In this document: positions 3,092-24,898 of the stretch, in pieces
Numbering within the stretch: position 1 is the stretch's first letter
How the letters are laid out: each line of letters starts with the position of its first letter
From: a virus
DNA length: 27,536 nt
IMG/VR virus record: IMGVR_UViG_3300028597_000058
Span: 1 to 27,536 of that record
Reading direction: 5' to 3' (one strand)
Notes under the pieces: model-generated
Told to the model about the DNA's origin: nothing
The model's database searches: none
The model's input: only the letters and a program-made list of their open reading frames with translations
Translations under genes and position numbers: made by a program

Positions 3092-3390
3092 CGCTTCCTC
3101 CCACCGCACAGGCGTGCGTTGCGGACCGCGACGACGGCGCGGTGCAGGTGCCCGAGCGTCCCGACCAGCGCCAGCACCGTCACGAAGGCGAGCAGCACGG
3201 TCGTCCAACGCAGCGGCGTACCCAGGTTGTTGATCTGCCCGCCCGTGGACACGATGCCGTAGCCGAGGAGCGCGACGAACCGTAGCCTTTGGTCCCAGCC
3301 CTCGGGCGCGTAGACCAGACACGGGCCGATGGCGAGGGCGAGGCAGAGCGCGGCGACGATGATCGTGTATCGCAGCGTGTCGACGGTCAT
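3088..3390 (-). CDS. Small membrane protein, holin-like
   Basis: The 100-residue product starts at the ATG at 3390, overlapping the stop of the lyase gene as ATGA. It has three hydrophobic segments, at about 7-28 (TIIVAALCLALAIGPCLVYA), 36-52 and 62-82 (TTVLLAFVTVLALVGTLGHL), and a basic C-terminus ending GRKR. Size, topology and position upstream of the amidase fit a class I-like holin or antiholin. The better family match for the holin is the gene at 1911, so this one may modulate lysis or serve another membrane role. Confidence 0.65.
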   Translation of the reverse strand: MTVDTLRYTIIVAALCLALAIGPCLVYAPEGWDQRLRFVALLGYGIVSTGGQINNLGTPLRWTTVLLAFVTVLALVGTLGHLHRAVVAVRNARLCGGRKR

Positions 3391-4148
3391 GGCGTGTGCC
3401 GCAGGTCGATGCCGTAGACGACGACCTCACCGGCGGCGTCCGGGGCGTCTCCCTTGGCCGTGCTGCTCTGTGTGTAGCAGCCGACCTTCCAGTACCAGCC
3501 CGATCCCGTGAGCGGCAGGTCGGCCTTCTGGGCGCCGTTGTAGGCCACCCGGACGCGCTTCCCCGTGGCGTCGATGCGCACCGTGAACCGGGTGCCGAGA
3601 ACGTAGGCGTCGTCGAGCACGACGGACTTCTTCCCGTCCGCGTACCGCAGCGTCAGCCGCCGGGCGGCCAGGTGGATCTGGATAACGTCGTCGTCGCCGT
3701 CGTGGATCTGCCCGGCCACGACCTCCGGTTTCACGACGGGCGTCTCGGTGATGGCCTGGTCGATGGTGAGGGTGTGGCTGCCGGTGGCGTTGGACCAGGC
3801 GGCCTTCTCGTCGCCGTCCATCTCCCGCAGCTCGGAGCGCGGGTAGCCGCTGCCCGACGTGCTGACCCCGTCGCAGCGCGCCCGGAACACCACCCCGCCG
3901 TCACGCACCCGGAACCACTCGTCCGAGTACGTGTCGAGCTCGGGCTGCAGGATCTCGGTCGGCCTCTCCGGCCGCCCGGTCGGGAGCGTCAGCTTCCACG
4001 GGTGCAGGTCGAGCACCTGCCCGGGCACTCGCGCGGCAGGCGGTGTGTCGGGGTGTGTCGGAGTGTGTCCGAGTGCTGCGACGGTGTCCTCCACGGCCGC
4101 CCGCATGGCCTGCGCGACGGCGTCCCACTGATCAGGCATCGACGACAC
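3387..4148 (-). CDS. Polysaccharide lyase family 7-like depolymerase (alginate lyase fold)
   Basis: The 253-residue protein has a variable N-terminus (1-42) followed by a PL7-like beta-jelly-roll. All three family signatures are visible in order: RSELRE (Arg104-Glu109), QIH (Gln147, Ile148, His149) and YWKVGCYTQ (Tyr219-Gln227). WKLTLP near residue 52 is the usual start of the domain. In PL7 enzymes the Arg, Gln, His and second Tyr bind and beta-eliminate uronate polymers, here Arg104, Gln147, His149 and probably Tyr225. The substrate may be alginate or another polyuronate and cannot be told from sequence. There is no signal peptide. The gene lies between tail-fibre-type genes and the lysis cassette, so a virion or released depolymerase is likely. 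The start overlaps the upstream gene by 17 bp; an ATG at 4139 is an alternative. Confidence 0.85.
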   Translation of the reverse strand: MSSMPDQWDAVAQAMRAAVEDTVAALGHTPTHPDTPPAARVPGQVLDLHPWKLTLPTGRPERPTEILQPELDTYSDEWFRVRDGGVVFRARCDGVSTSGSGYPRSELREMDGDEKAAWSNATGSHTLTIDQAITETPVVKPEVVAGQIHDGDDDVIQIHLAARRLTLRYADGKKSVVLDDAYVLGTRFTVRIDATGKRVRVAYNGAQKADLPLTGSGWYWKVGCYTQSSTAKGDAPDAAGEVVVYGIDLRHTP

Positions 4149-4985: not shown

Positions 4986-7900
4986 TCAGAGCCCGAGGAC
5001 GGGTGGCTGCCACACGCTCACCGGTGTCCCGGCAGGTTTAGCGGCGGGCATGGTTGCGCCAGTGACGGTGAACTCCTGCAACGTCCCCGTGTCGGCGGTC
5101 GAGGTGGCGGCGGGCAGCAGCTCGACCGCGGCCAGCGTCCAGGTTTGCCCGGCCGGGGCGGACATGCCGACCGTCACATCCCCGGCAGCGGACACGGGCT
5201 GGTAAGCGCCGTACACGCGGACGTTGCTCGTCGAGCTGGTCTGCGTCTGCACCGCGGGGGCGACGTAGGTTTGCGCACCGGCGGTGACGTCCCAGTCGGC
5301 GCACAGCCACGTGATCACCGACAGCTCGTCGGTCGCGGCCACGGTCGCGGACGGCAGGCTGTCGGTGCCCAGGTACGGGGACGCACCGGCCGGGGTGCCG
5401 GCGATCTGCGCGTCCGCCCAGCGCTCGACGATGATGCCGTGATCGTTGCTGCCGGTCTGCCAGGTCACCGACACGCTCATGGAGCCGGGGCTGGTGCCGA
5501 CCTCGGCGACGAAGATGAAGATTTCGGAGTGGCCGGTGGCCTGGATGTGGCGGTGCAGCCCGAACGTGAGGTTGCCGCCGGTGCAGGTGGCGAAGTTCGG
5601 GTCGTTGAGGTCGCCACCCCAGCCCTTGACGACGATCACCTCCCCATCCGAGGGGGTGAACGAGGTTGTGCTGGTGGTAGTGGTGCCGGTGTCGACGTCC
5701 AGATACGACGCGACCAGGTTGGGCCGCACATCGCCGGGGGTGTCGTCGGCCGGCTCGAACCCGGGCAGCGCCGACAGGACATCGTCGAGGAGCGCCCCGA
5801 ACGCCCCGTCGAGCTCGTGGCCGATCCCCGGCGGCGTGGTGAGGGTGGTGGTGAACCCTTCCGCGGCGTACAGCGCAGAGCCTTCCTGCGCGTCCGTGAG
5901 CGCGTCGTAGCCGTCGCTCACGAAGTCGCCGTTGTCGAGGTCGCCCGTCCACCAGTGCATCGGGAAGTTGGCTTTGAGTTCGGCGGAGAACGTGGGCGTG
6001 CCGACGATCGCCCCGCCACCGCCGATGATCAGCGCCCCGCCGCCGCCGGACAGCAGGGTGTTCCCGTAGGCGGGCACGAAGTAGCTGTTGATCTGCACGG
6101 CGCCGCCGGAGTAGCCGACCAGCCAGATCCGCGACGTGTCCACGTCGTACGTGGCGGTCAACTGCTGGATCAGCTCGGCCAGCCACTGCGCGTTCCGCGC
6201 GCCCGCCTCCCACCAGGTCACCGTCCCCGTGGTGTCCGGCGAGAGCGGCACGGCCAGGATGTAGCCCTTCGCCCGCGCCACATCGGGCAGCCCGCGATGC
6301 CCGCCCAGCGAGTACTCGTCGGTCGGGTTGAGGTACTCGTAGGCGCCATCCCCGTGCAGGTGCACCACCAGACCCGCACCGGAGGCCGGGGTGTCGTCGG
6401 CGTACACGTGATAGGTGCCGGTCAGCCCGTCGGAGTCGGTGAAGCTCACCCCGGTCTGATCAGTCCACGCCCCCAGGGTCGGGCCCGTGTCGGCGCACGC
6501 GGTGGCCGTGACCGGGATACCGCCCACGTCGAGCACCATCGGGTACTGCGCCGCCGCGGTCGTCCAACGCGGCCCGGCGGTGGTGGTCACCGACAGCGTC
6601 GACGCACCCGCCGCCGCCGCCGCCGCGAGCTCGCAGCCCTCGGTGTCGGCGCGGCCGACGTGGTCGCCGTCATCGTCGGTGTCGGCGGCCACCGTGGCCA
6701 CCCGATACGGCTCGTAGGGGGTCGTGTTGGCGATCACCCGCCACTGGTGCTGATTGATTGTCTCGGTGTAGCCCTGCAGCAGCAGCGACTGCGTGTCACC
6801 CGGCAGCTGCGTGCGGGCGTCCAGCAGGTTGACGACGTCGATCCGGCCGCCGATCTGCGTGGCCAGCCAGTCCTCCGCCAACTCGGGGTTCTTGGCCAGG
6901 TGGAAGGCGACCGTCGGGTACCGGTAGGTGAAGGCGCCGGCAGTACCGAGATGCAGCCGCCACTGCGCGTGCGCCAGCGCCGCATCATCGGAGTAGAGCG
7001 GCAGGGTGGCCGACTGGTCGTAGAAGCCGATCGTGGCGGTACCCAGCGGCCCGTCGACGTCCTCGGCGAGCTGGTCGGCGCCGCCGTCGCGGGACACCAC
7101 GACCCGGTTGGTGATGCCCTGGTCGTCGTCGACCGGGTCGAACGGCTCCAGCAGCTGCGATTCGGCGACGTCGATGGTGAGGTCGGCAGGGTCGCGGCTG
7201 TAGCGGTAGCGGCGGGTCGTGTAGGTGAGCCCGAAGTCGTGGCCGTCGTACAGAACCCCGCCGTCCACTGCCGCAGCCGACTCGAGCAGCGGCAGCAACT
7301 CGCCGGCGAACTGCGGCCCCATCAGGTCCGACTCCTGCGGGCGGGGGTTGTCGGGGTCGTCGGCGTCGACGACGGTCACCGACACCCCGGCCTCGTCGGC
7401 GAGCCGCTGGATGCGGGCGACGGCCTGCTCCCCATCCCATCCGGTGAGCTCGTCGAGGTGGTAGTCCTCGGTGATCGTGGAGTAGACGGCGACGTGCCCG
7501 ACCACCCAGTTCTGCGCGCCCGGCGCGATGATCTCGGCCGGGTCGATCCCGTCGTCCTCATCGTCCGGGTGCGTGTTGATCCACACCTGGGAGATCCGGC
7601 CGATACTGCCCGACCATGACCCGGTGGACACGGTCGCGGTCGGCTCCGGCCCCTCATCGACCGGCACCAGGGTCAGCGCGTAGGACACGGTGCCGCCGGA
7701 CTCGACCATCTCCAGCTGCAGCACGAAGGCGCCGCCGTCGACGGCCAGCGCGAACTCCGTGTTCTCGTCCGACCCGTCGTCGGCCTGCACCGACAGCGAG
7801 CCTGCGGTGGGGCCGTACACGACGGTGACGTTGTCGCTGCTCCCGGACACCTCCAGCGCCAGGATCTCCTGGCCGGGGACGGCGCCCGAGTCAGGGAAGC

Positions 7901-9914
7901 GGATCAGCATCCGCACCGCGCCCTGCCCGGTGCTGGTGTAGCGAGGCACATCGGCGTACAGCTCCGCCGCGTTCAGGGTCGGCAGCGGCTCCGACGCCCC
8001 GAACGACTGGTCCGCGGCCAGCTCGGGCGGCTTGTGATCCTCCCGATCCGGGTAGAGCAGCCACTCCATGCCGTGCCGGGTGCGGCCGGTGACGACCTCA
8101 CCGAACCGGGACAGGGTGCCGGCCTGCGCGGTGGTCTCGGTCATCGGCCAGTAGGCGACGACCTTCCCGGCCGCAATGTCATGCTCCAGGATCGTGCGGT
8201 AGGTGGAGGGCACCGAGGTTTGTGACTGGTTGAGGCGGCGTAGCGTCCCGGACGCCTCCAAGACGACGATCGCGTCGGTGCCGGTGAGGTCCCATCCGGG
8301 GGTCCATCCCACCGCGTGGCCCTGGAACAGGCTCACGTAGGTGCCGGTGTTGGGGTCGAGCCGCACCCGGATGGGGGTGTTGCGGCGCACGTAAGGCCAC
8401 CACTGCGACGTGCCACCGAGCCCGTAATCGCCGCTGCGGTTGTCCAGCAGGACGCTGCACCGGGACGGCTGGGCGGCGCCGGCCTCGTCGGCGCGGCCCA
8501 TCGTGATGCTGACGGTGGCGCCGTCGGACTGCCGCACGTGGTGGGTGATGTCGTGCCAGTCCCAGCCGTCGGGGTCCGCGGCCAGGTCGGCACCAAACGC
8601 GGCCTGCACCTGCAGGTAGGCGGCGGCGAAAGCGTTCCGCAGGACCTGCACGGCGACGAGCACCGTGACCTCGTCGAACGCCGGGCCCTGCGAGTTGGTG
8701 GCGGTGTAGCGCAGCACGTAGGTGCCGGGCACGGTCGGTGTCCACGACAGCGCCGCGGCGGAGGCGAGGGTGTCGCCCACCTGGTCGGGCCCGGACTCGA
8801 CCGTCCACGCCCTGCCGCTGATCGCGAACCCGTTGTCGTCCTCGGTCGCGGTCCTGCTCAGCGTGTCGCCGTAGGCGAGGGTGACGTCCGCCCCGGCGGT
8901 CACGGCCGGCTCGGCCGTGACCGTGACCGTGATCTCGTCGGACGTGTTGCCGGCCGAGTTGGTGGCCGTGTACCGCAGCGTGTAGGTGCCCGCGGTCGTC
9001 GGCGTCCACGACAGGGTGGCGGTGCTGGCCAGCACCGTGCCCGTGCCGGGGTCGGAGGCGATCATCCACTCGCGGGCGGTGATCGTGGCCCCGTTGTCGG
9101 AGTCGGTCGCGGTCCGGGCGAACACCGCGTCGACCTGGGTGGTGGCGTCCGCCCCGGCGGCGACCGTGGGCGGGGACGCGGTCGGCAGCAGCGCCAGCAG
9201 CCGGCCAGTCGCCTTGTCCGAGGTCCCGTAGGTGCCGGACACGGCGCCCGTCGAGGTCGCGGTGGCGGCGTTGCGGGTGGCCACCGCAAGACAGCCACCG
9301 TCGGCCCGCTCCGTGTACCCGCTGGGCGGGGTCCACGACTCGTAGCCGTCGAAGTTGCTGCCCGACCACACCAGCAGCCTGTTCGCGCCCTGGGTGATCA
9401 GCTCCACCGCAGGACTGTTGTCGTCCCCGGACGAGTCGGCGGCAGTGTCGGGCGCCCCAGCCCCGGCGTCGTACGGCGTGCCCGACGCAACCACGCCGGT
9501 GTAACGGACCGCGACACCCTCGTAGTAGCACGACCCGGTCCAGGTGAAGACGTAGCTACCGGCGTCCGCGCCTGACGCGCGCTTCCAGAACTGGCGGTGC
9601 ACCTGCCCGCTGGGCATGGTGCTGGGGGCGGTGGGGATCTCGGTGAACCCGGACGGCGGGGTGACGGTGGCCGTCGACTCGATGTACAGGTCGACGAGCA
9701 CCACATGCCCCGACGCCACCCCCGACGGCACGGCGATCGACGCGGAGGTGCCGTTCGAACCTGGCGCACGGTAGGCGCCGGCCGCACCGAACGCAGGCAG
9801 AGACGACGTGGATGAGGACGGGGTGCCGCCCGAGGACAGTCCGGGAGCGGACGGGCCGGGCGCCGGACCGCTCCGGAACTGCCCCCAGCCTGCCGAGAGG
9901 GCGGCAGTGCTCAT
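4986..9914 (-). CDS. Giant minor tail protein with an embedded serine-esterase-like domain
   Basis: The 1642-residue protein starts at the ATG at 9914. Residues 45-245 are a beta-rich fibre-like region. Two PKD/Ig-like repeats follow at about 247-420, each with LSWTPT-x-GTY-LRYTATNS. Residues 430-1070 match the core of actinophage minor tail proteins (ITHHVRQSDG, CSVLLDNRSGDYG), including a lectin-like beta-sandwich at about 630-750. Residues 1165-1385 look like an alpha/beta-hydrolase close to PHB-depolymerase-type esterases: VVHLHGDG, nucleophile elbow GYSGG (Ser1269), acidic TGDLDNGDF (Asp1327 the likely acid) and GIGHELD (His1366). A second fibre-like region follows to about 1600. The C-terminus EFTVTG...PAGTPVSVWQPPVLGL resembles the normal end of these tail proteins, so the esterase block appears inserted. 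It probably hydrolyses esters on the host surface; the substrate is unknown. Confidence 0.85.
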   Translation of the reverse strand: MSTAALSAGWGQFRSGPAPGPSAPGLSSGGTPSSSTSSLPAFGAAGAYRAPGSNGTSASIAVPSGVASGHVVLVDLYIESTATVTPPSGFTEIPTAPSTMPSGQVHRQFWKRASGADAGSYVFTWTGSCYYEGVAVRYTGVVASGTPYDAGAGAPDTAADSSGDDNSPAVELITQGANRLLVWSGSNFDGYESWTPPSGYTERADGGCLAVATRNAATATSTGAVSGTYGTSDKATGRLLALLPTASPPTVAAGADATTQVDAVFARTATDSDNGATITAREWMIASDPGTGTVLASTATLSWTPTTAGTYTLRYTATNSAGNTSDEITVTVTAEPAVTAGADVTLAYGDTLSRTATEDDNGFAISGRAWTVESGPDQVGDTLASAAALSWTPTVPGTYVLRYTATNSQGPAFDEVTVLVAVQVLRNAFAAAYLQVQAAFGADLAADPDGWDWHDITHHVRQSDGATVSITMGRADEAGAAQPSRCSVLLDNRSGDYGLGGTSQWWPYVRRNTPIRVRLDPNTGTYVSLFQGHAVGWTPGWDLTGTDAIVVLEASGTLRRLNQSQTSVPSTYRTILEHDIAAGKVVAYWPMTETTAQAGTLSRFGEVVTGRTRHGMEWLLYPDREDHKPPELAADQSFGASEPLPTLNAAELYADVPRYTSTGQGAVRMLIRFPDSGAVPGQEILALEVSGSSDNVTVVYGPTAGSLSVQADDGSDENTEFALAVDGGAFVLQLEMVESGGTVSYALTLVPVDEGPEPTATVSTGSWSGSIGRISQVWINTHPDDEDDGIDPAEIIAPGAQNWVVGHVAVYSTITEDYHLDELTGWDGEQAVARIQRLADEAGVSVTVVDADDPDNPRPQESDLMGPQFAGELLPLLESAAAVDGGVLYDGHDFGLTYTTRRYRYSRDPADLTIDVAESQLLEPFDPVDDDQGITNRVVVSRDGGADQLAEDVDGPLGTATIGFYDQSATLPLYSDDAALAHAQWRLHLGTAGAFTYRYPTVAFHLAKNPELAEDWLATQIGGRIDVVNLLDARTQLPGDTQSLLLQGYTETINQHQWRVIANTTPYEPYRVATVAADTDDDGDHVGRADTEGCELAAAAAAGASTLSVTTTAGPRWTTAAAQYPMVLDVGGIPVTATACADTGPTLGAWTDQTGVSFTDSDGLTGTYHVYADDTPASGAGLVVHLHGDGAYEYLNPTDEYSLGGHRGLPDVARAKGYILAVPLSPDTTGTVTWWEAGARNAQWLAELIQQLTATYDVDTSRIWLVGYSGGAVQINSYFVPAYGNTLLSGGGGALIIGGGGAIVGTPTFSAELKANFPMHWWTGDLDNGDFVSDGYDALTDAQEGSALYAAEGFTTTLTTPPGIGHELDGAFGALLDDVLSALPGFEPADDTPGDVRPNLVASYLDVDTGTTTTSTTSFTPSDGEVIVVKGWGGDLNDPNFATCTGGNLTFGLHRHIQATGHSEIFIFVAEVGTSPGSMSVSVTWQTGSNDHGIIVERWADAQIAGTPAGASPYLGTDSLPSATVAATDELSVITWLCADWDVTAGAQTYVAPAVQTQTSSTSNVRVYGAYQPVSAAGDVTVGMSAPAGQTWTLAAVELLPAATSTADTGTLQEFTVTGATMPAAKPAGTPVSVWQPPVLGL
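5086..6494 (-). repeat. 11-bp direct repeats flanking the esterase insertion
   Basis: CCCGTGTCGGC (plus strand) occurs at 5086-5096 and again at 6484-6494. The copies are 1398 bp apart, a multiple of three, and both encode Ala-Asp-Thr-Gly in the same frame (residues 1141 and 1607). They sit where the familiar terminal module of the tail protein is interrupted and where it resumes. This fits a domain insertion, or loss by deletion, through short homology. Chance is possible in G+C-rich DNA, but the match in position and frame is notable. Confidence 0.55.
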
Positions 9915-9924
9915 CGGTTAGTGC

Positions 9925-10437
9925 TCACTCGTCCCAGACGATGAAGGTGCGCATGTCCACGGCTGTGGTCGGGGTGGTCGCCCGCACCCGCAGGAACTTG
10001 GACACGGCGATGATCGGCCGCTCGTCGGGCATCCACTGCTTCACGTAAGACATGTTCGCCGTGGCCTCCGCCGAGGTCGAGGACAGCGACTGCACGTCGA
10101 ACACCCGCGTGGCGGTGGTGGAGCCCTCCGCGGACGCGGTGTAGCCGGTGTTCGCGACGCCCAGGGTGAGCAGGGAAGCGGGGGCGTTCGGGTCGAGCTG
10201 CTGCACCCCGGACGCGACATGCGCGGTCACGGTGGCAGCCACGTCGGTCTGCAGCAGCTCGATCACCCCGTCCGCGCCGGCCGGGTCGTCGATTGAGTAC
10301 CCCCAGCTGATGAGCTGGATCTGCCGGGTCGATGGGGTCGACAGTTGCAGCATCGTCTTGATCGCCGTGCCGGTCGTGACGGACTGCTGCGCGGCCGTGG
10401 TTGGCATGGGGCCGTTCCACGAGATGAAGCGGTGAAT
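9925..10437 (-). CDS. Virion structural protein, probable tail-associated, with possible AUU start
   Basis: The protein is beta-rich, with 160 residues from the ATG at 10407 or 170 from an in-frame ATT at 10437. The ATT is preferred: a full AGGAGG (10450-10445) lies exactly 7 nt upstream, while it is 37 nt from the ATG. The extra residues read HRFISWNGP. Recognisable segments are TGTAIKTMLQL, TPSTRQIQLISWGYSID and SYVKQWMPDERPIIAVSKFL, all without Cys. It lies between the tape measure and the large minor tail protein, where distal tail or baseplate proteins are encoded. I do not recognise a named family. An AUU start would be rare; the ATG start remains possible with weak initiation. Confidence 0.65.
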   Translation of the reverse strand: MHRFISWNGPMPTTAAQQSVTTGTAIKTMLQLSTPSTRQIQLISWGYSIDDPAGADGVIELLQTDVAATVTAHVASGVQQLDPNAPASLLTLGVANTGYTASAEGSTTATRVFDVQSLSSTSAEATANMSYVKQWMPDERPIIAVSKFLRVRATTPTTAVDMRTFIVWDE

Positions 10438-10444
10438 GGCGAAA

Positions 10445-10450
10445 CCTCCT
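10445..10450 (-). promoter_or_regulatory. Shine-Dalgarno AGGAGG that argues for an AUU start
   Basis: A full AGGAGG is read on the minus strand. The next seven bases TTTCGCC lead straight to ATT at 10437, which is in frame with the annotated ATG 30 bases later. No in-frame ATG, GTG or TTG lies between the site and that ATG. Confidence 0.6.
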
Positions 10451-10458
10451 GGTCAGTG

Positions 10459-10480
10459 CCGCACGATCAGGATCGTGCGG
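10459..10480 (-). terminator. Hairpin after the tape-measure gene
   Basis: CCGCACGAT (10459-10467) pairs with ATCGTGCGG (10472-10480) around a 4-nt loop, 11 bp past the tape-measure stop and 8 bp before the AGGAGG of the next gene. There is no U run, so it may be an attenuator or an RNA-processing or stability element rather than a full terminator. Confidence 0.45.
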
Positions 10481-10491
10481 TGCGGTGAGGG

Positions 10492-13400
10492 TCAGACGAC
10501 GCGGATGGCGCCGGTGCGCACCAGCTTCTGGAACGCGGTCGCGAACGCCCCGTCGACGTCGCCGACGAACTGGACCTCGCGGGTGCCGGTGTAGCGGCCG
10601 CGGCGCCACCGTCCGGTGTCCTGCTCGTCGAGCTGGTGCCCGGCGACCACGGAGGCGCCGCGGCCGCCCCACCGGTTGCGGTCCCAGCCGTGCCCCCAGC
10701 CGCGGTCCCAGCCACCCGACCTACGCCCACCGCCGTAGCCGCGGTGCCCGCTGCCGGACAGGACGCGCGGGTCACCGGCCTGGAAACCGGCCACCACCCC
10801 GGCCGCCATGACTCGCTGCTGCATCCGCTCCACCGCGCGCACCGCGTGCTGCTGGTAGCGGCGGACGCCGACCGCGATCCCGCGGGGGATCTGCTTGCCG
10901 ACCTGGTCACGGAAGTCCTTCGACGGCGACGCAATCCCGATCGCGGACTTGGCGGCGGCGAGCAGGCCTTGCGCCTTCGTCGTGACGAACGACTCCAGCG
11001 CCGCCCACCCGCCTTCGATACCGGCCCGGATGCCGTCGACGACGGCCTGCCCCAGGCCGAGCCAGTCGAGAGTCTTGACGAAGTCGTAGACGGTCTGCCA
11101 GTTCGTCTGCCAGAACGACAGGATGGCCTGCAGCCCGGTCTCGATGGCGGATTGGATCGCGGTCATCGCCGCAGTGATCGCGGCCTGGATCGCCGTCCAC
11201 ACGGTGGTCGTTTCGGCGAGGATCGCCTGCAGTCCCGCAGACACCGCGGCCTGGATTGCAGCCATCCCGGCGGTGACGGCCGCAGTCATCGCCTCCATGC
11301 TCGCCACCACCACCGCAGTGATCGCGGCCATCTGCGTGGTCACGTCGGCGAGGATGCTGGCCATCGCGGTCTGCACGGTGGCGAGCATCGTCACGTTCCA
11401 GAACGTGATCCACGCTTCGCCCATCGTGGCCAGGTTCGTGGTCATCGTCTCGGCGAACGTCGTCCAGAACGCCGTCCACCCTTCCTGCATCAGCGCCAGG
11501 TTGGTGGTCTGCGTTTCGACAAAGGTCGTCCACCAGGTCGACCAGGTTTCCTGCAGGGTGGTGAGCGCGGTGGTCGCAGCCTCGGGGAACGTGGTCGTCC
11601 AGAACGTCGTCCAGCCCTCCAGCAGGAGGGCGAGGTTGGTGGTCTGGGTTTCGATGAACGTGACCCACCAGGTCGCCCAGGCCTCCTGCACGGCGACCAG
11701 GGCGGTAGTCATGGCCTCGGTGAGGCTGGTCTGCCAGAACGTCGTCCACGCGGCCAGCAGGGTGGCGAGGGACGTATTCATGGTTTCGGTGAGGCCGGTC
11801 TCCCAGAACGTGGCCCACTGCGTTTGCAGGGCGAGAAGGGCGGCCGTGAGGCTCGCGCCCAGCCCAGTGGTCCAGAACGTGTCCCACGCGGCCTGCAGAG
11901 CGGCCAGGCTGGTGTTCATCGACTCGGTGAGCCCGGTCGCCCAGAACTCGGCCCACTGGGTTTGCAGGGCGAGCAATGCCGCGGTGAGGGACTCCCCCAG
12001 ACCGGTCGTCCAGAACGTGTCCCACTGCGTCTTGAGTACGGCCAGAGCGGCGGTCATGGCCTCGCCCAGTCCGACCGCCCAGAAGTCCGCCCAGGTCTGC
12101 TGTAGCGCGATCAGGGAGTCGGTGACCTTCTGCTGGAACTCGGCCCACTTCTCGTCCCACTTCGTACCGAGCGCGATCATCGCGTCGTCCAGCGCGGTGC
12201 CGAAGTCAAACGAGGTATCGAGCGCCTTGGTGCCCAGACTCAGGCCGTCTAGCAGCAGCTGTAGCGCGGAGATCGCCAGCCCGGCGACCCCGGCAGCGAC
12301 GGCCGCGCCGTCCATGCCGCGCTTGACCGCGTCCAGGCCGACGCCGACCGCGTCGATGGCCTCCCGCGCCCCGGTCAGCAGGAGCGCCTCTTTCAGCTCC
12401 TTGATGGTGTCGAGCGCACCCTTGGCCGCCTTGAACCCCTGATACGCCTTGATCAGGGCCTTGATGGCGACGACCGCGCCGAGGATGATCGGCGCCCATT
12501 CCTTGATCGCCTCTTTGTTGTCGACGATCCACTTGACGAACTTCTCGATGTGCGGCAGCGCCGCCTCGATCGCGCCCGCCAGCTTCTCGGCCAGCAGTCC
12601 TGCGACCTCGCCGATCACCGGCAGCAGCGGCGACAGCGCCTCCAGTAGCTTCCCGCCCGCGGCGGCGAGCTTCTCGAAGCCGGGCGTGGCGGCGGTGATG
12701 CCCTCCCCGAACTTCGACAGGAAGGTGCCCAGGTTGCCGCCGACCGCAGCGCCCATCCGGGTCAGCAGCTCGATCGTCGGGCCCAGTACGTTCCCCAGCC
12801 CGGTCAGGGTCGCCGACATGCCCTCGATGGCCTTGGAGAGGGTGCCTTCCTCGTTGTTGGCGAGCTTGTCGAACACGTCGCCGATCTGGCCGAGGATGCC
12901 GCCCAGGGCGTCACCGAACGCACCCATCGCGGGGGCTGCACCGGCGAACGCGGACAGCAGCCCCTCGGAGAACTTCTGCACGCCGGGGCCCATCCGGTCG
13001 ACCATGTCCCCAACGCCGCCGAGGCCGTCCTGAAGCTGCATGATCCCGCGCTCGGTGGTGGCCGGCATGAGGAAGCTGTTCATCAACCCGGAGACGGCCT
13101 CGGCGACCCCCTTGGCCTGCGGGGTGATCTTCGTGAGGGTGGTGCCGAGCTTGTCGAACGTGCCGGTCAGGTTCTTCTCGAACACCCCGGACACGGCCTT
13201 CTTGAACGCGTCCAGCTCCGGCTTGGCCTGACCGGCGGCCTTCTTGATGCCGTCCATCCCGGCCGCGACCACCGCACCGGCCGCGCCGAACGCGAGCAGT
13301 GCGGGGACCGCAGCCCCGGCCGCGGCGCCCAGCCCGCCCAGCACCCCTGCGCCGGCGCCGACCCCTGCGCTCTTGCCCAGCACGCCCAGCGCACTGCTCG

Positions 13401-13545
13401 CCGCCGAGGCGAACGTCTTACCCCACGAGTCCCCGGCCTTCTGGCCTTCGCTCTTCGCTGCGGCGGTGACCTTCGAGAACTCGGCCTTGACGCCATTCGC
13501 GGAGGCGGTGACCCGGATGTTGACCGTGTTCCCGCCCGCAGCCAC
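10492..13545 (-). CDS. Tail tape measure protein
   Basis: The GTG at 13545, with AAGGGGG upstream, gives 1017 residues. The tape-measure protein sets tail length and occupies the tail lumen. The N-terminal domain has a typical opening (TVNIRVTASANGVKAEFSKV), then Gly/Ala-rich membrane-prone stretches at about 50-95. Helical segments fill 100-470. Residues about 475-724 hold eleven Trp-rich repeats of 22-23 residues. Ala-rich helices follow, then the conserved GIASPSKDFRDQVGKQIPRG segment near 870. The last 130 residues include a Gly/Trp/Arg-rich low-complexity run (GYGGGRRSGGWDRGWGHGW). It lies directly after the frameshifted chaperone pair, as expected. Confidence 0.92.
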   Translation of the reverse strand: MAAGGNTVNIRVTASANGVKAEFSKVTAAAKSEGQKAGDSWGKTFASAASSALGVLGKSAGVGAGAGVLGGLGAAAGAAVPALLAFGAAGAVVAAGMDGIKKAAGQAKPELDAFKKAVSGVFEKNLTGTFDKLGTTLTKITPQAKGVAEAVSGLMNSFLMPATTERGIMQLQDGLGGVGDMVDRMGPGVQKFSEGLLSAFAGAAPAMGAFGDALGGILGQIGDVFDKLANNEEGTLSKAIEGMSATLTGLGNVLGPTIELLTRMGAAVGGNLGTFLSKFGEGITAATPGFEKLAAAGGKLLEALSPLLPVIGEVAGLLAEKLAGAIEAALPHIEKFVKWIVDNKEAIKEWAPIILGAVVAIKALIKAYQGFKAAKGALDTIKELKEALLLTGAREAIDAVGVGLDAVKRGMDGAAVAAGVAGLAISALQLLLDGLSLGTKALDTSFDFGTALDDAMIALGTKWDEKWAEFQQKVTDSLIALQQTWADFWAVGLGEAMTAALAVLKTQWDTFWTTGLGESLTAALLALQTQWAEFWATGLTESMNTSLAALQAAWDTFWTTGLGASLTAALLALQTQWATFWETGLTETMNTSLATLLAAWTTFWQTSLTEAMTTALVAVQEAWATWWVTFIETQTTNLALLLEGWTTFWTTTFPEAATTALTTLQETWSTWWTTFVETQTTNLALMQEGWTAFWTTFAETMTTNLATMGEAWITFWNVTMLATVQTAMASILADVTTQMAAITAVVVASMEAMTAAVTAGMAAIQAAVSAGLQAILAETTTVWTAIQAAITAAMTAIQSAIETGLQAILSFWQTNWQTVYDFVKTLDWLGLGQAVVDGIRAGIEGGWAALESFVTTKAQGLLAAAKSAIGIASPSKDFRDQVGKQIPRGIAVGVRRYQQHAVRAVERMQQRVMAAGVVAGFQAGDPRVLSGSGHRGYGGGRRSGGWDRGWGHGWDRNRWGGRGASVVAGHQLDEQDTGRWRRGRYTGTREVQFVGDVDGAFATAFQKLVRTGAIRVV
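11374..12122 (-). repeat. Eleven tandem Trp-rich 22-23-residue repeats in the tape measure
   Basis: About eleven consecutive units follow the pattern T-x-x-L-x-x-L-x-x-x-W-x-x-F/W-W-x-x-x-L-x-E-x-M. Examples of the core are TQWDTFWTTGLGESL, AAWDTFWTTGLGASL and TQWAEFWATGLTESM. Units alternate in pairs (units 2 and 4 are alike in the core, as are 3 and 5), which suggests duplication of two-unit blocks. Regular aromatic spacing of 22, twice 11, is known from tape-measure proteins. Confidence 0.8.
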
Positions 13546-21630: not shown

Positions 21631-23238
21631 TCAGATCACGCTCCAATTTGAGCCGGTAGAAATGAGCCGTAACGTCCCGTAGTTCGCGGCAACCGCCACC
21701 GAGGCGGCGCCGTCGACGGTTTGGCCGGACCCGCCGGCCACCGGCACGGTCATGTTGTGAGTGCCCGCAGCACCGGACTCGTCCTTGATGATCAGCCGGA
21801 ACCCGGCGCCCGCGGTGGCCGCGCTGGGCAAGGTCAGCGTCCGCGGAGCGGAAAGGGAGGTGACCGCGACGTAGTGGTCCGTGGCCAGGATCGTGTAGTT
21901 GGCGTCGGCGACGGTGGTGCGCTTCGACGTGGTGAACGCCCCGGACGTGGCGAGCCCGCGAACGAACGTGGACCCCGCCGAGTTGACCAGGAGCGCCGAG
22001 CCGGTGGCGTCGTAGACACGGACCATGTCGGCGGTGGTGCTGGCCGGCGCGCGGACTACGAGCCCCTTTTGCGTGGTGGAGTCGGCTTGGACGTTCAGCT
22101 TGCCTTCGTCGCCGCCGGTCAGGGCGGCTGTGGCGGCGTACAGCTTGCCTTCGGTGTAGATCCGGTCGTTGTCGCTCGCGCCGACCCCGCCGACGAGGGC
22201 GGCGTTGTTGAGTCGGTACTTGTCGTTCCCGCCGACCCACTGCGCGAGCCTCGTGGTGGTGATCGAGTAGGGGGTGGCCGCGCCGGTCACGTCGAGCATT
22301 ACGCCGCTGTGAGAGCGGGACAGGTTGCGGCAGGTGACGCCAACCCCCGAGTCGGTGATCTTGACGACCGGCCCGCCTACCCCGGTGCGGGACACAACCC
22401 CGTCGATTAGGACGTTCTGCTGCGCCCCGTCCACGATGATTGTCGGCACACCCGATTCGGTGTTCTCGTGCTTGACACCCTCGATCATTACCGCGGCCTG
22501 CGACGACGACCCCAGGTAGATCAGCGCGGAGGCGACCCCCGTGGTGGATGGGGTGTCACCCTTAATTCCGCGGATGAGGACGTTGTTGTCCAGGCTGGAC
22601 AGGTGTAGCCCGTACTGGCATAGCAGGGTCCACAGGTCATCGATGATGACGCAGTCCGAGGAGTTCCCCGACGTCGCGGTGATCTTCACGCTGGCGCCGG
22701 TGGGGAACCCGAGGATGTCCATCTCCCGGACGATCGTCTGGTTGACGACCTCCTCGAAGTAGACGCCGTTCCCGCCAGCGGGGGAGGTGCGTCGGTCGTG
22801 GATGCGGAACCCCTGCACCGCGACCCGTGACACGCTCGACCCGCCCGAGCCGATCGCCTCAACACAGTTCTCGTTGGTACCGCCGTGGAACTCGATCGCT
22901 GTGCCGCCGGAGCCTGCCCCGAACGGGGTGGTGCGCAGGAGGTCGGTGCCGACCAGTGACGTTGACTGGTACAGGGTCAGCGCGCTGGTGGTCTTGAAGC
23001 GGCCCGGGGGGAGCCGCACCTGACGGCCGACATGGACCCCGCCGAAGGTGGTGGAGTCGATCGCGGCCTGGATTGCGGCGGTGTTGTCCGTGCCTGTTCC
23101 GGTCGTGTAGTCGTAGTCGCCGACCGCGCCGTAGTCTCGGACGTCGATGTACCAGTCGGTGGAGTATTGCTGATTGAAAACCGGGGGCGAGGTCGCCGAG
23201 TCCAGGTAGAACGACTCGTGATAGTTCCACCGCGTCAC
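21631..23238 (-). CDS. Right-handed beta-helix (pectate-lyase-superfamily) virion protein, copy 2
   Basis: The GTG at 23238, one base past the previous stop, gives 535 residues. It opens with a short polar head (NYHESFYLDSATSPPV), then the classic start of a pectate-lyase-like beta-helix: YIDVRDYGAVGD, TDNTAAIQAAIDS, VRLPPGRFKT. The helix runs to about 400 with GVYFEEVVNQTIVRE, DLWTLLCQYG and SRTGVGGPVVKI. The last 100 residues are a separate cap (RTTVADANYTILATD, APRTLTLPSA, FRLIIKDESGAAGTHN). Tail spikes with this fold often cleave host polysaccharide; active-site residues cannot be assigned here. It is a close paralogue of the gene at 24898. Confidence 0.85.
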   Translation of the reverse strand: MTRWNYHESFYLDSATSPPVFNQQYSTDWYIDVRDYGAVGDYDYTTGTGTDNTAAIQAAIDSTTFGGVHVGRQVRLPPGRFKTTSALTLYQSTSLVGTDLLRTTPFGAGSGGTAIEFHGGTNENCVEAIGSGGSSVSRVAVQGFRIHDRRTSPAGGNGVYFEEVVNQTIVREMDILGFPTGASVKITATSGNSSDCVIIDDLWTLLCQYGLHLSSLDNNVLIRGIKGDTPSTTGVASALIYLGSSSQAAVMIEGVKHENTESGVPTIIVDGAQQNVLIDGVVSRTGVGGPVVKITDSGVGVTCRNLSRSHSGVMLDVTGAATPYSITTTRLAQWVGGNDKYRLNNAALVGGVGASDNDRIYTEGKLYAATAALTGGDEGKLNVQADSTTQKGLVVRAPASTTADMVRVYDATGSALLVNSAGSTFVRGLATSGAFTTSKRTTVADANYTILATDHYVAVTSLSAPRTLTLPSAATAGAGFRLIIKDESGAAGTHNMTVPVAGGSGQTVDGAASVAVAANYGTLRLISTGSNWSVI

Positions 23239-23239
23239 G

Positions 23240-24898
23240 TCAGATCACGTCCCAAACCGAGCCGTCGGAGATCAGCCGCAGCACCCCGTAGTTCGTTGAG
23301 ATCGCCACGGAGGCGGCGCCGTCGATGTTCTGCGGTGCGGTGGCCCGCTGGACGGTGATGTTGTGGGTGCCCGCAGCACCGGACTTGTCCTTGATGATCA
23401 GCCGGAAGCCGTTGCCGACGGTGCCCGCGTTGGGCAAGGTCAATGTGCGCGGCGCGGTCAGCGAGGTGACGTCGATCCGAAAATCCGTGGCCAGGATCGT
23501 GTAGTTCGCGTCGGCGACGGTGGTGCGTTTGAGGTCGATCCTTGCCCCGTTGGTTTGCAGCGCGCGCATGATGGTGTTGCCCGAGCTGTTGACCGTGAAC
23601 GCGGTGCCGGACGAGTCGAAGAACCGGACCAGGTCCACCGACGCTGACGCTCCGCCGTAGACGACGAGCGCCTTTTGCGAGGTACTGTCGCGCTGGATGA
23701 ACACCTTGCCGTCGTCGCCGCCGGCCGGGGCGGTGGCCGACCCGACGAGCTTCCCCGTCAGATAGATCCGGTCGTTGTCGCTGGCACCGGTGCCGCCGTG
23801 GAGTACGGCTGTATTGATCCGGTATCCGTCCGATCCGCCGGTCCAGTACCCCAGCCGGGTCGTGGTGATCTGGTAGGGGGTGGTGGCACCTGCGACGTCG
23901 ACCATCACCCCGCTGTGCGAGCGGGTCAGGTTCCGCAGCGTGATCCCGATCCCCGGGTCGGACACGATCTTGACGACCGGGCCACCGACGCCGGTGCGGG
24001 ACACGACACTGTCGATCTGCACGCCGCGCTGGACGCCGTCGAGGATGATCGTCGGAACGGTCGCGTCCTGGTTCTCGTGCTTGACACCCTCGATGAGGAC
24101 CGCAGCCCCGGACGACCCGCCCAGGTAGATGACACCTTGGGTGAGACCGGGGGTGCCCGAGGTGTCGGCCTTGATGTCGCGGATCAGGACGGTGTTGTCG
24201 TAGTTGCTGAGGTACACCCCGTACCCGCAACCCAGCGTCCACAGATCCTCGATGGTGATGCAGTCCGAGGAGTTCCCGGTGGTGGCGGTGACCCGCACCG
24301 CGGCGCCGGTGGGGAACCCGAAGAAGTCCATCCCGCGGATGACCGTCTGGTTGACGACCTCCTCGAAGTAGACGCCGTCCCCGGAGACCGGACTGACCCG
24401 CCGGTCGATCAGGCGGAAGCCCTGGATGAGGATCCGGGATGCGGAGGTGACCGTGCCGACCGCCTGAATGCAGTTCTCCGTCGAGTCGCCGTGGAACTCG
24501 ATCGTGGTGCCGCCGCCGCCCTGGCTCAATGCGGCGGTGCGCAGGAGATCCCCGCCGATGAGCTGCGTGGACTGGTACATGGTGATCGGGGCGGTCGTCT
24601 TGTACCGGCCCGGCGGCAGGAACACCTTCTTCCCGACGTGCTCACCGCTGGTGGTGGCGTCGATCGCCGCCTGGATCGCGCCGGTGTTGTCGGTGCCCGC
24701 GCCGGTGGCCACCACATAGTCACCGATCGCGCCATAGTCGCGGGCGTCGACATGACCGGCGGCGATGATGTCCGCTCCGGTCAAGTCGGGGGGGTCATCG
24801 GACGACCCGTACAGTTCGCGGGCGGTGTCCCCGTCGTGCGGGCACGTATCCAGGCTGAATGCGTAGAGGGTGGTGCAGCCCAGGCAGCGCCACAGCAT
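23240..24898 (-). CDS. Right-handed beta-helix virion protein, copy 1, with N-terminal zinc ribbon
   Basis: The ATG at 24898 gives 552 residues. Residues 1-22 are a zinc-ribbon-like head (LWRCLGCTTLYAFSLDTCPH) matching the start of the neighbouring 92-residue protein. Then comes the pectate-lyase-type opening (HVDARDYGAIGD, TDNTGAIQAAIDA, VFLPPGRYKT), about 350 residues of beta-helix, and the same cap as in copy 2 (TTVADANYTILATDF, APRTLTLPNA). Most of the length aligns with the 535-residue protein without large gaps, so the pair arose by tandem duplication. A role as a capsid-attached or tail-attached depolymerase fibre is likely but not shown. Confidence 0.85.
   Translation of the reverse strand: MLWRCLGCTTLYAFSLDTCPHDGDTARELYGSSDDPPDLTGADIIAAGHVDARDYGAIGDYVVATGAGTDNTGAIQAAIDATTSGEHVGKKVFLPPGRYKTTAPITMYQSTQLIGGDLLRTAALSQGGGGTTIEFHGDSTENCIQAVGTVTSASRILIQGFRLIDRRVSPVSGDGVYFEEVVNQTVIRGMDFFGFPTGAAVRVTATTGNSSDCITIEDLWTLGCGYGVYLSNYDNTVLIRDIKADTSGTPGLTQGVIYLGGSSGAAVLIEGVKHENQDATVPTIILDGVQRGVQIDSVVSRTGVGGPVVKIVSDPGIGITLRNLTRSHSGVMVDVAGATTPYQITTTRLGYWTGGSDGYRINTAVLHGGTGASDNDRIYLTGKLVGSATAPAGGDDGKVFIQRDSTSQKALVVYGGASASVDLVRFFDSSGTAFTVNSSGNTIMRALQTNGARIDLKRTTVADANYTILATDFRIDVTSLTAPRTLTLPNAGTVGNGFRLIIKDKSGAAGTHNITVQRATAPQNIDGAASVAISTNYGVLRLISDGSVWDVI

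Follow-up and report, generated by a model that had tools for sequence, protein, structure and literature searches.

The window analysed here, the whole 27,536 bases of an IMG/VR virus record, encodes a large tail protein downstream of a tape-measure gene, and the C-terminal module of this protein is split by a block that includes an esterase-like domain. The tail protein and the genes that bear on its reading are the following.

3387-4148, minus strand: PL7-type alginate lyase of 253 aa, a possible partner enzyme (PF08787, E = 7.4e-36)
4986-9914, minus strand: tail protein of 1642 aa, PHROG 5313 family
4989-5078, minus strand: second half of the terminal module, residues 1613-1642, QEFTV...WQPPVLGL
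5097-6494, minus strand: inserted block of 1398 bp (466 aa), residues 1141-1606, splitting the conserved C-terminal module
6495-6632, minus strand: first half of the terminal module, residues ~1095-1140 (HMM of the N-terminal half, E = 5.3e-10)
6675-8567, minus strand: hub-like core, residues ~450-1080, common to Streptomyces phage tail proteins
8640-9185, minus strand: two PKD-like repeats, residues ~244-425, a 70% identical DNA self-match
9186-9800, minus strand: N-terminal domain, residues ~39-243 (phrog_6813, E = 3.6e-25)
10492-13545: tape-measure gene (phrog_305, E = 7e-47)
21631-23238 and 23240-24898, minus strand: two tandem, similar, pectate-lyase-like and tailspike-like proteins (PF12708)

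The tail protein was assigned to PHROG 5313 by a profile match over its hub-like core (phrog_5313, E = 1.6e-120, best stretch residues 526-1145). This core shares about 25-34% identity with tail proteins of the Streptomyces phages Cumberbatch, phiSASD1, Dubu, Dagobah, Chymera and ShakeNBake, and the tail protein of the Thermobifida phage P1312 matches part of it in the same identity range. The N-terminal domain resembles the C-terminal part of mycobacteriophage Bobby gp44. Residues 1-425 (8640-9914, minus strand), which comprise this domain and the two PKD-like repeats, are missing from the sister protein on viral contig L104; that protein starts with the hub, which marks another gain or loss in the same protein. 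A Dit gene might be read at 9911-10672, but this ORF is probably a shadow frame, and the 160-aa ORF at 9925-10407 reads better. A second IMG/VR contig with a different metagenome id (L003) is 99.986% identical over 7367 bp and carries the same structure with both junctions confirmed, which makes an assembly chimera unlikely.

Unbroken homologues have a C-terminal module of the form ...SLSVATTAGPRWTT... that ends in L. In the window protein, the first half of this module could be traced to Cys1140 and the second half begins at Gln1613, the sequence past the insert reading ADTGTL-QEFTV. The first half is 56-57% identical to L104 and the second half alone is divergent (HMM of the C-terminal half, E = 0.63); joined, the two flanks are 49-53% identical to L104 and also match Chymera (E = 8e-3). 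Six residues separate 'TAI/TAC' from 'QTFTV' in 59 of the 66 distinct unbroken modules used as seeds, and deletion of the insert together with one copy of the ADTG that stands at both junctions leaves, in silico, a turn of just this length. In an AlphaFold model of an unbroken module, that of L046 (mean pLDDT 88, core about 96), the insertion point is the turn between strands 58-66 and 72-77. Structurally, the module comes closest to phage components: the JBD30 baseplate and the GP4 portal-tail complex (both Z 9.7) and the Chi tail tip (Z 9.2). This is a modest signal, a little higher than the 7-8 usual for models that lack a clear match. The first-pass annotation of this DNA had described a hydrolase inserted in the terminal module, and comparison with homologues bears this out: residues 1141-1606 are missing from the sister phage L104, whose module is unbroken, and the only tail-protein homologue found to carry the block is the near-identical L003.

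Within the block, the following parts were distinguished.

5760-6470, minus strand: alpha/beta-hydrolase (esterase-like) domain, residues ~1149-1385, half of the block
6108-6110, minus strand: codon of Ser1269, predicted nucleophile in GYSGG, at the elbow between strand E179-184 and helix H186-203 of the model
5934-5936, minus strand: codon of Asp1327, predicted triad acid, in the loop after strand E235-238 of the model
5817-5819, minus strand: codon of His1366, predicted triad histidine, in the loop after strand E272-275 of the model
5109-5747, minus strand: beta-rich fibre-like domain, residues ~1390-1602, with low-confidence strand predictions

The motifs from which the hydrolase was first recognised (HLHGDG, GYSGG with Ser1269, TGDLDNGDF with Asp1327 and GIGHELD with His1366) all stand at the positions reported for them in the ORF translation, and the three residues are invariant in 13 sequences, namely the window protein and 12 actinobacterial relatives. 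Because MAFFT failed to place the second module half beside the long insert, structure prediction was built on the alignment rows of the first half and the esterase only. The parts folded in this analysis were the terminal module and the insert. In the resulting AF2 model the second module half is largely below pLDDT 50, and the hydrolase domain has block-mean pLDDT values of about 79-97 over model residues 71-300, with Ser1269, Asp1327 and His1366 in the canonical positions of such a triad. Its best structural match (VIA) is carboxylesterase 1auo (Z 21.3, rmsd 2.3, 196 aligned residues), feruloyl esterases and the PHB depolymerase 8daj score 19-20 (VIA), the three enzyme classes together span Z 18-21, and the top Foldseek matches, from E = 5e-8 onward, are hydrolases with the alpha/beta-hydrolase fold. 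These scores, which peak at Z 21.3 for some 200 aligned residues, place the modelled domain in this fold, in agreement with the initial reading of the block; it is a GxSxG alpha/beta-hydrolase and not an SGNH fold with a GDSL-type motif. Lysin B is not among the structural matches listed, an absence that carries no weight.

Profile searches pointed in the same direction at lower scores. Two NCBIfam models of PHB-depolymerase-type esterases matched weakly (E = 1.5e-10 for e_dPHAscl_type1, and 2.7e-5), far below their curated cut-offs (TIGR01840 / NF050058, 23.8 vs 107.85 bits; 41 vs 150 bits). A Pfam search of the esterase domain gave only a sub-threshold match to DUF915, and a search of PDB sequences returned noise with the single esterase sequence and only weak esterase matches with a profile. 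On the model, the domain is an esterase-like serine alpha/beta-hydrolase of predicted activity and substrate. The fibre-like domain was poorly modelled (largely pLDDT under 50); no relatives were found in Pfam, phage records or viral contigs except in L003, and no CBM family matched it. The idea that it duplicates the N-terminal domain was dropped (blastp E = 1.9, hhalign probability 0.3%), and the self-match in the window DNA that might have signalled such a duplication is the PKD pair.

The turn is a site of recurrent insertion. Two sets of viral contigs together with phage records contained 82 ORFs with an unbroken module and 83 other ORFs split at the same turn, numbers that do not represent a frequency and come from phage loci that are partly non-independent, since each set was fetched with queries favouring one state. 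The inserts of the 83 split ORFs are about 205-230 aa or about 362 aa long, and similarity links all of them into one group with a common domain of ~205 aa, for which no Pfam family matched the member tested; the longer inserts tested consist of this domain plus CBM_4_9 (E = 1.4e-7, above its cut-off). Among phage isolates matching a consensus-like module, coverage reaches at least 80% in Chymera and phiSASD1 only, and the rest match in part, many from the turn onward or others only from further upstream. Thus, the premise of the first-pass annotation that this module is normally unbroken in actinophages did not survive, whereas its reading of an inserted hydrolase with residues at the canonical triad positions did, the module being unbroken in the sister; its interpretation is thus partly supported. 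In Cumberbatch and Dubu (L005, 2095-5358; L010, 2083-5904), another domain lies between 'GPxWVTA' and 'EFPF/EFPI', and the module therefore has at least two insertion points. ORF 22 of P1312 (L007, 4338-7628) is annotated, like phrog_24476, as a 'phosphodiesterase'; it reads as a tail protein of PHROG 5313 type with an insert at the same turn, and that label looks doubtful.

A tree of the hub from 118 sequences, with the insert excluded, requires at least 26 changes of the unbroken state, 15 of them forced by well-supported branches, and hub pairs that are 81-83% identical can differ in module state. The window protein and L104, its nearest relative phage, are sisters (support 100/99) in a clade of 11, of which 9 are unbroken. 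Since the sister and most of this clade are unbroken, a gain in the window lineage is the most economical history and, judged from the tree, the most likely one; the L104 hub is only 36% identical to that of the window, which leaves room for further states in between. The unusual element is an enzyme-like domain at a recurrent insertion site. In the literature searched, neither this hotspot nor an actinophage tail bearing such an esterase is described, although descriptions may exist elsewhere.

Both junctions of the block carry a short direct repeat.

6484-6495, minus strand: left copy, 12 bp, ADTG, residues 1141-1144
5086-5097, minus strand: right copy, 12 bp, ADTG, residues 1607-1610

The sequence CCCGTGTCGGC is found exactly at 5086-5096 and 6484-6494, in frame and at a spacing of 1398 bp, and both copies read GCC GAC ACG GG., that is, Ala-Asp-Thr-Gly. 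Coordinates, spacing, frame and encoded residues are as first described; the length is not, the exact match being 12 bp, one base beyond the 11-bp form. As a motif in the window, CCCGTGTCGGC is unremarkable (4 sites with up to 1 mismatch vs 4.1 expected). We scored exact matches between two 60-bp segments, i.e. within 30 bases of either junction, in a test devised after the repeat was noticed, so that its frequencies are post hoc: matches of at least 11 bp occurred in 32 of 3000 random position pairs in the tail gene (about 1%) and in about 0.4% of those drawn from the 83 related split genes. Junction repeats do not mark insertions in general: in the 83 other split genes they never exceed 10 bp.

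The hydrolase is close to esterase-like proteins that soil actinobacteria carry. The esterase domain is ~50% identical to proteins on the Rhodococcus plasmids pLRE138, pN9T4-1 and pR8L1, and the 12 relatives, at 39-53% identity, come from Rhodococcus plasmids and chromosomes, Georgenia, Propioniciclava, Nigerium, Arthrobacter and two Actinomycetales MAGs. Those of Rhodococcus have signal-like N-terminal segments, and extra domains are found in others (FG-GAP repeats in L016, DUF4082 in L023); several proteins of the family are, by their sequences, apparently secreted. The loci L015-L023 (match at 8001 onward) represent an uncharacterised actinobacterial hydrolase family with the motifs HGDGAYE, TWWE and GYSGG, for which Pfam has no family of its own. 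A tblastn search of 50,697 phage records with the esterase and fibre-like domains gave no match, and among IMG/VR viral contigs only the near-identical L003 carried the block. The esterase-family tree has one well-supported branch only, and base composition gave no trace of transfer, GC3 being 0.94 in esterase and hub alike. The hydrolase was most likely acquired from a host-type gene.

The window also encodes polysaccharide enzymes. Close downstream of the tail protein lies the PL7 gene, whose product has AlgAT5 (5zqi) as its best solved relative (E = 6e-60) and contains the motifs RSELR, QIH and YWKVGCYTQ; it gave no tblastn match in the 50,697 phage records and only the near-identical L003 in IMG/VR. 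The pectate-lyase-like pair is flanked by the major head protein on one side and the tail genes on the other. Alginate lyases are hindered by O-acetylation, and a deacylase followed by the lyase, the two acting in turn, would therefore be a reasonable reading of this gene content.

Taken together, the reading we favour, at a probability of about two in three, is that the 6-residue hairpin turn of a small terminal beta domain serves as a recurrent domain-insertion site, and that a 466-residue cassette with a host-type serine alpha/beta-hydrolase and a fibre-like domain entered that turn. Anchored in the tail tip, the enzyme would work on the host envelope during adsorption. Its predicted targets there are esters, most likely O-acyl substituents, of a polysaccharide on the host surface or of a wall polymer, and their cleavage would clear or modify the receptor layer before DNA injection, perhaps in concert with the PL7 lyase and the pectate-lyase-like proteins. 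Because relatives place other domains in the same turn, it looks like a natural docking site for host-surface tools. A more far-reaching form of this proposal, in which the turn is a general docking site for swapped domains and the predicted esterase deacylates an acidic polysaccharide for cutting by the PL7 and pectate-lyase-like enzymes, seems to us rather doubtful.

How the cassette arrived can be read in other ways. Instead of entering an empty turn, the esterase block may have taken the place of an earlier insert (the ~205-aa domain, for instance) through recombination in the conserved flanks. Other inserts lie flush between the conserved strands, the flanks are similar enough to act as recombination handles and changes of module state are frequent; however, L104 and 9 of the 11 clade members are unbroken, and the window protein keeps both halves of the turn (ADTG ... 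ADTGTL), with the usual 6 residues once one copy is removed, so that we consider replacement unlikely. The gain of the block in the window lineage may itself have been linked to the 12-bp repeat. Together with the restored 6-residue turn, the repeat favours such a link, for which the sequence suggests about even odds. That the repeat is a coincidence with no part in the insertion is a serious alternative, a little short of an even chance: matches of 11 bp or more fall at 0.4-1% of random junction pairs in these GC-rich genes by a test made after the fact, the region holds further repeats of 10-12 bp at various places, and junction repeats over 10 bp are missing from all other split genes. Coincidence would nonetheless have to account for a repeat that is in frame and whose removal with the insert yields the turn length of 59/66 unbroken homologues.

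The role of the domain on the virion is likewise open to other readings. It could be non-catalytic and serve as an adhesin for the polymer that was the substrate of its ancestor, as some other inserts at the same turn are of binding type (CBM_4_9). The nucleophile elbow, the HGDG motif, the Asp and the His are conserved with the cellular family, however, and the hydrolase fold is confidently complete in the model, which makes loss of catalysis quite improbable. If the enzyme is active, it might be directed to wall or lipid esters (e.g. towards mycolates, like lysin B) and not be a polysaccharide deacylase. Rhodococcus, which has mycolic acids, is among the close relatives, and in structural comparison the scores of carboxylesterases and thioesterases are close to those of carbohydrate esterases. 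Relatives also occur in Georgenia, Propioniciclava and Nigerium, which to our knowledge lack mycolates, and polysaccharide lyases are encoded in the window; a wall- or lipid-directed esterase thus appears improbable beside the proposed cleavage of ester groups on a surface polymer.

Insertion into tail-tip loops is already known for sugar-binding modules of dairy phages, and in actinophages a comparable site can now be placed at a single hairpin turn whose state has changed many times across the family and one of whose passengers is an enzyme-like domain, from a family found here otherwise in cellular actinobacteria only. This pins down where in these tails large inserts are tolerated, and the phage's host may reveal the substrate of an uncharacterised hydrolase family.

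Of the known systems, Streptomyces phage Chymera gp18 and phiSASD1 gp38 share the tail protein family and terminal module of the window, but their module is unbroken and without a hydrolase. The hydrolases of Rhodococcus plasmids, Georgenia and Propioniciclava share its catalytic domain, at 39-53% identity with identical catalytic positions, but are cellular proteins with other C- or N-terminal parts, those of Rhodococcus with a signal-like N-terminus. PHB depolymerases and feruloyl esterases (NF050058, TIGR01840, LpqC 3d0k) have the same fold, GxSxG nucleophile and triad order, and the window hydrolase matches the N-terminal half of their profile, whereas it scores below the curated cut-offs and is located in a phage tail. 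Tail esterases of another fold have proved active, one of which is reported to deacetylate lipopolysaccharide (PMC13123978). The SGNH esterase tail fibres to which the window protein can be likened as a tail-borne serine esterase, E. coli phage G7C gp63.1 and the Klebsiella prophage RBPs (PMC13123978), are expected to strip acyl groups, but belong to a different fold family and a different tail protein. In the evolved Dit and evolved Tal of Gram-positive siphophages, accessory domains are inserted in loops of the tail-tip core (PMC7291167, PMC10688798), and adsorption has been shown to benefit from inserts in a tail-tip protein (PMC10688798). The window protein resembles these in that the insert lies in a loop of a conserved tail-tip core whose flanks align with insertion-free homologues, and in that some relatives carry CBM_4_9 at the same site. 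It differs from them in that its own insert is enzyme-like and does not qualify as a carbohydrate-binding module, that its core is an actinophage PHROG 5313 protein and that the site of insertion is the turn of a C-terminal beta module.
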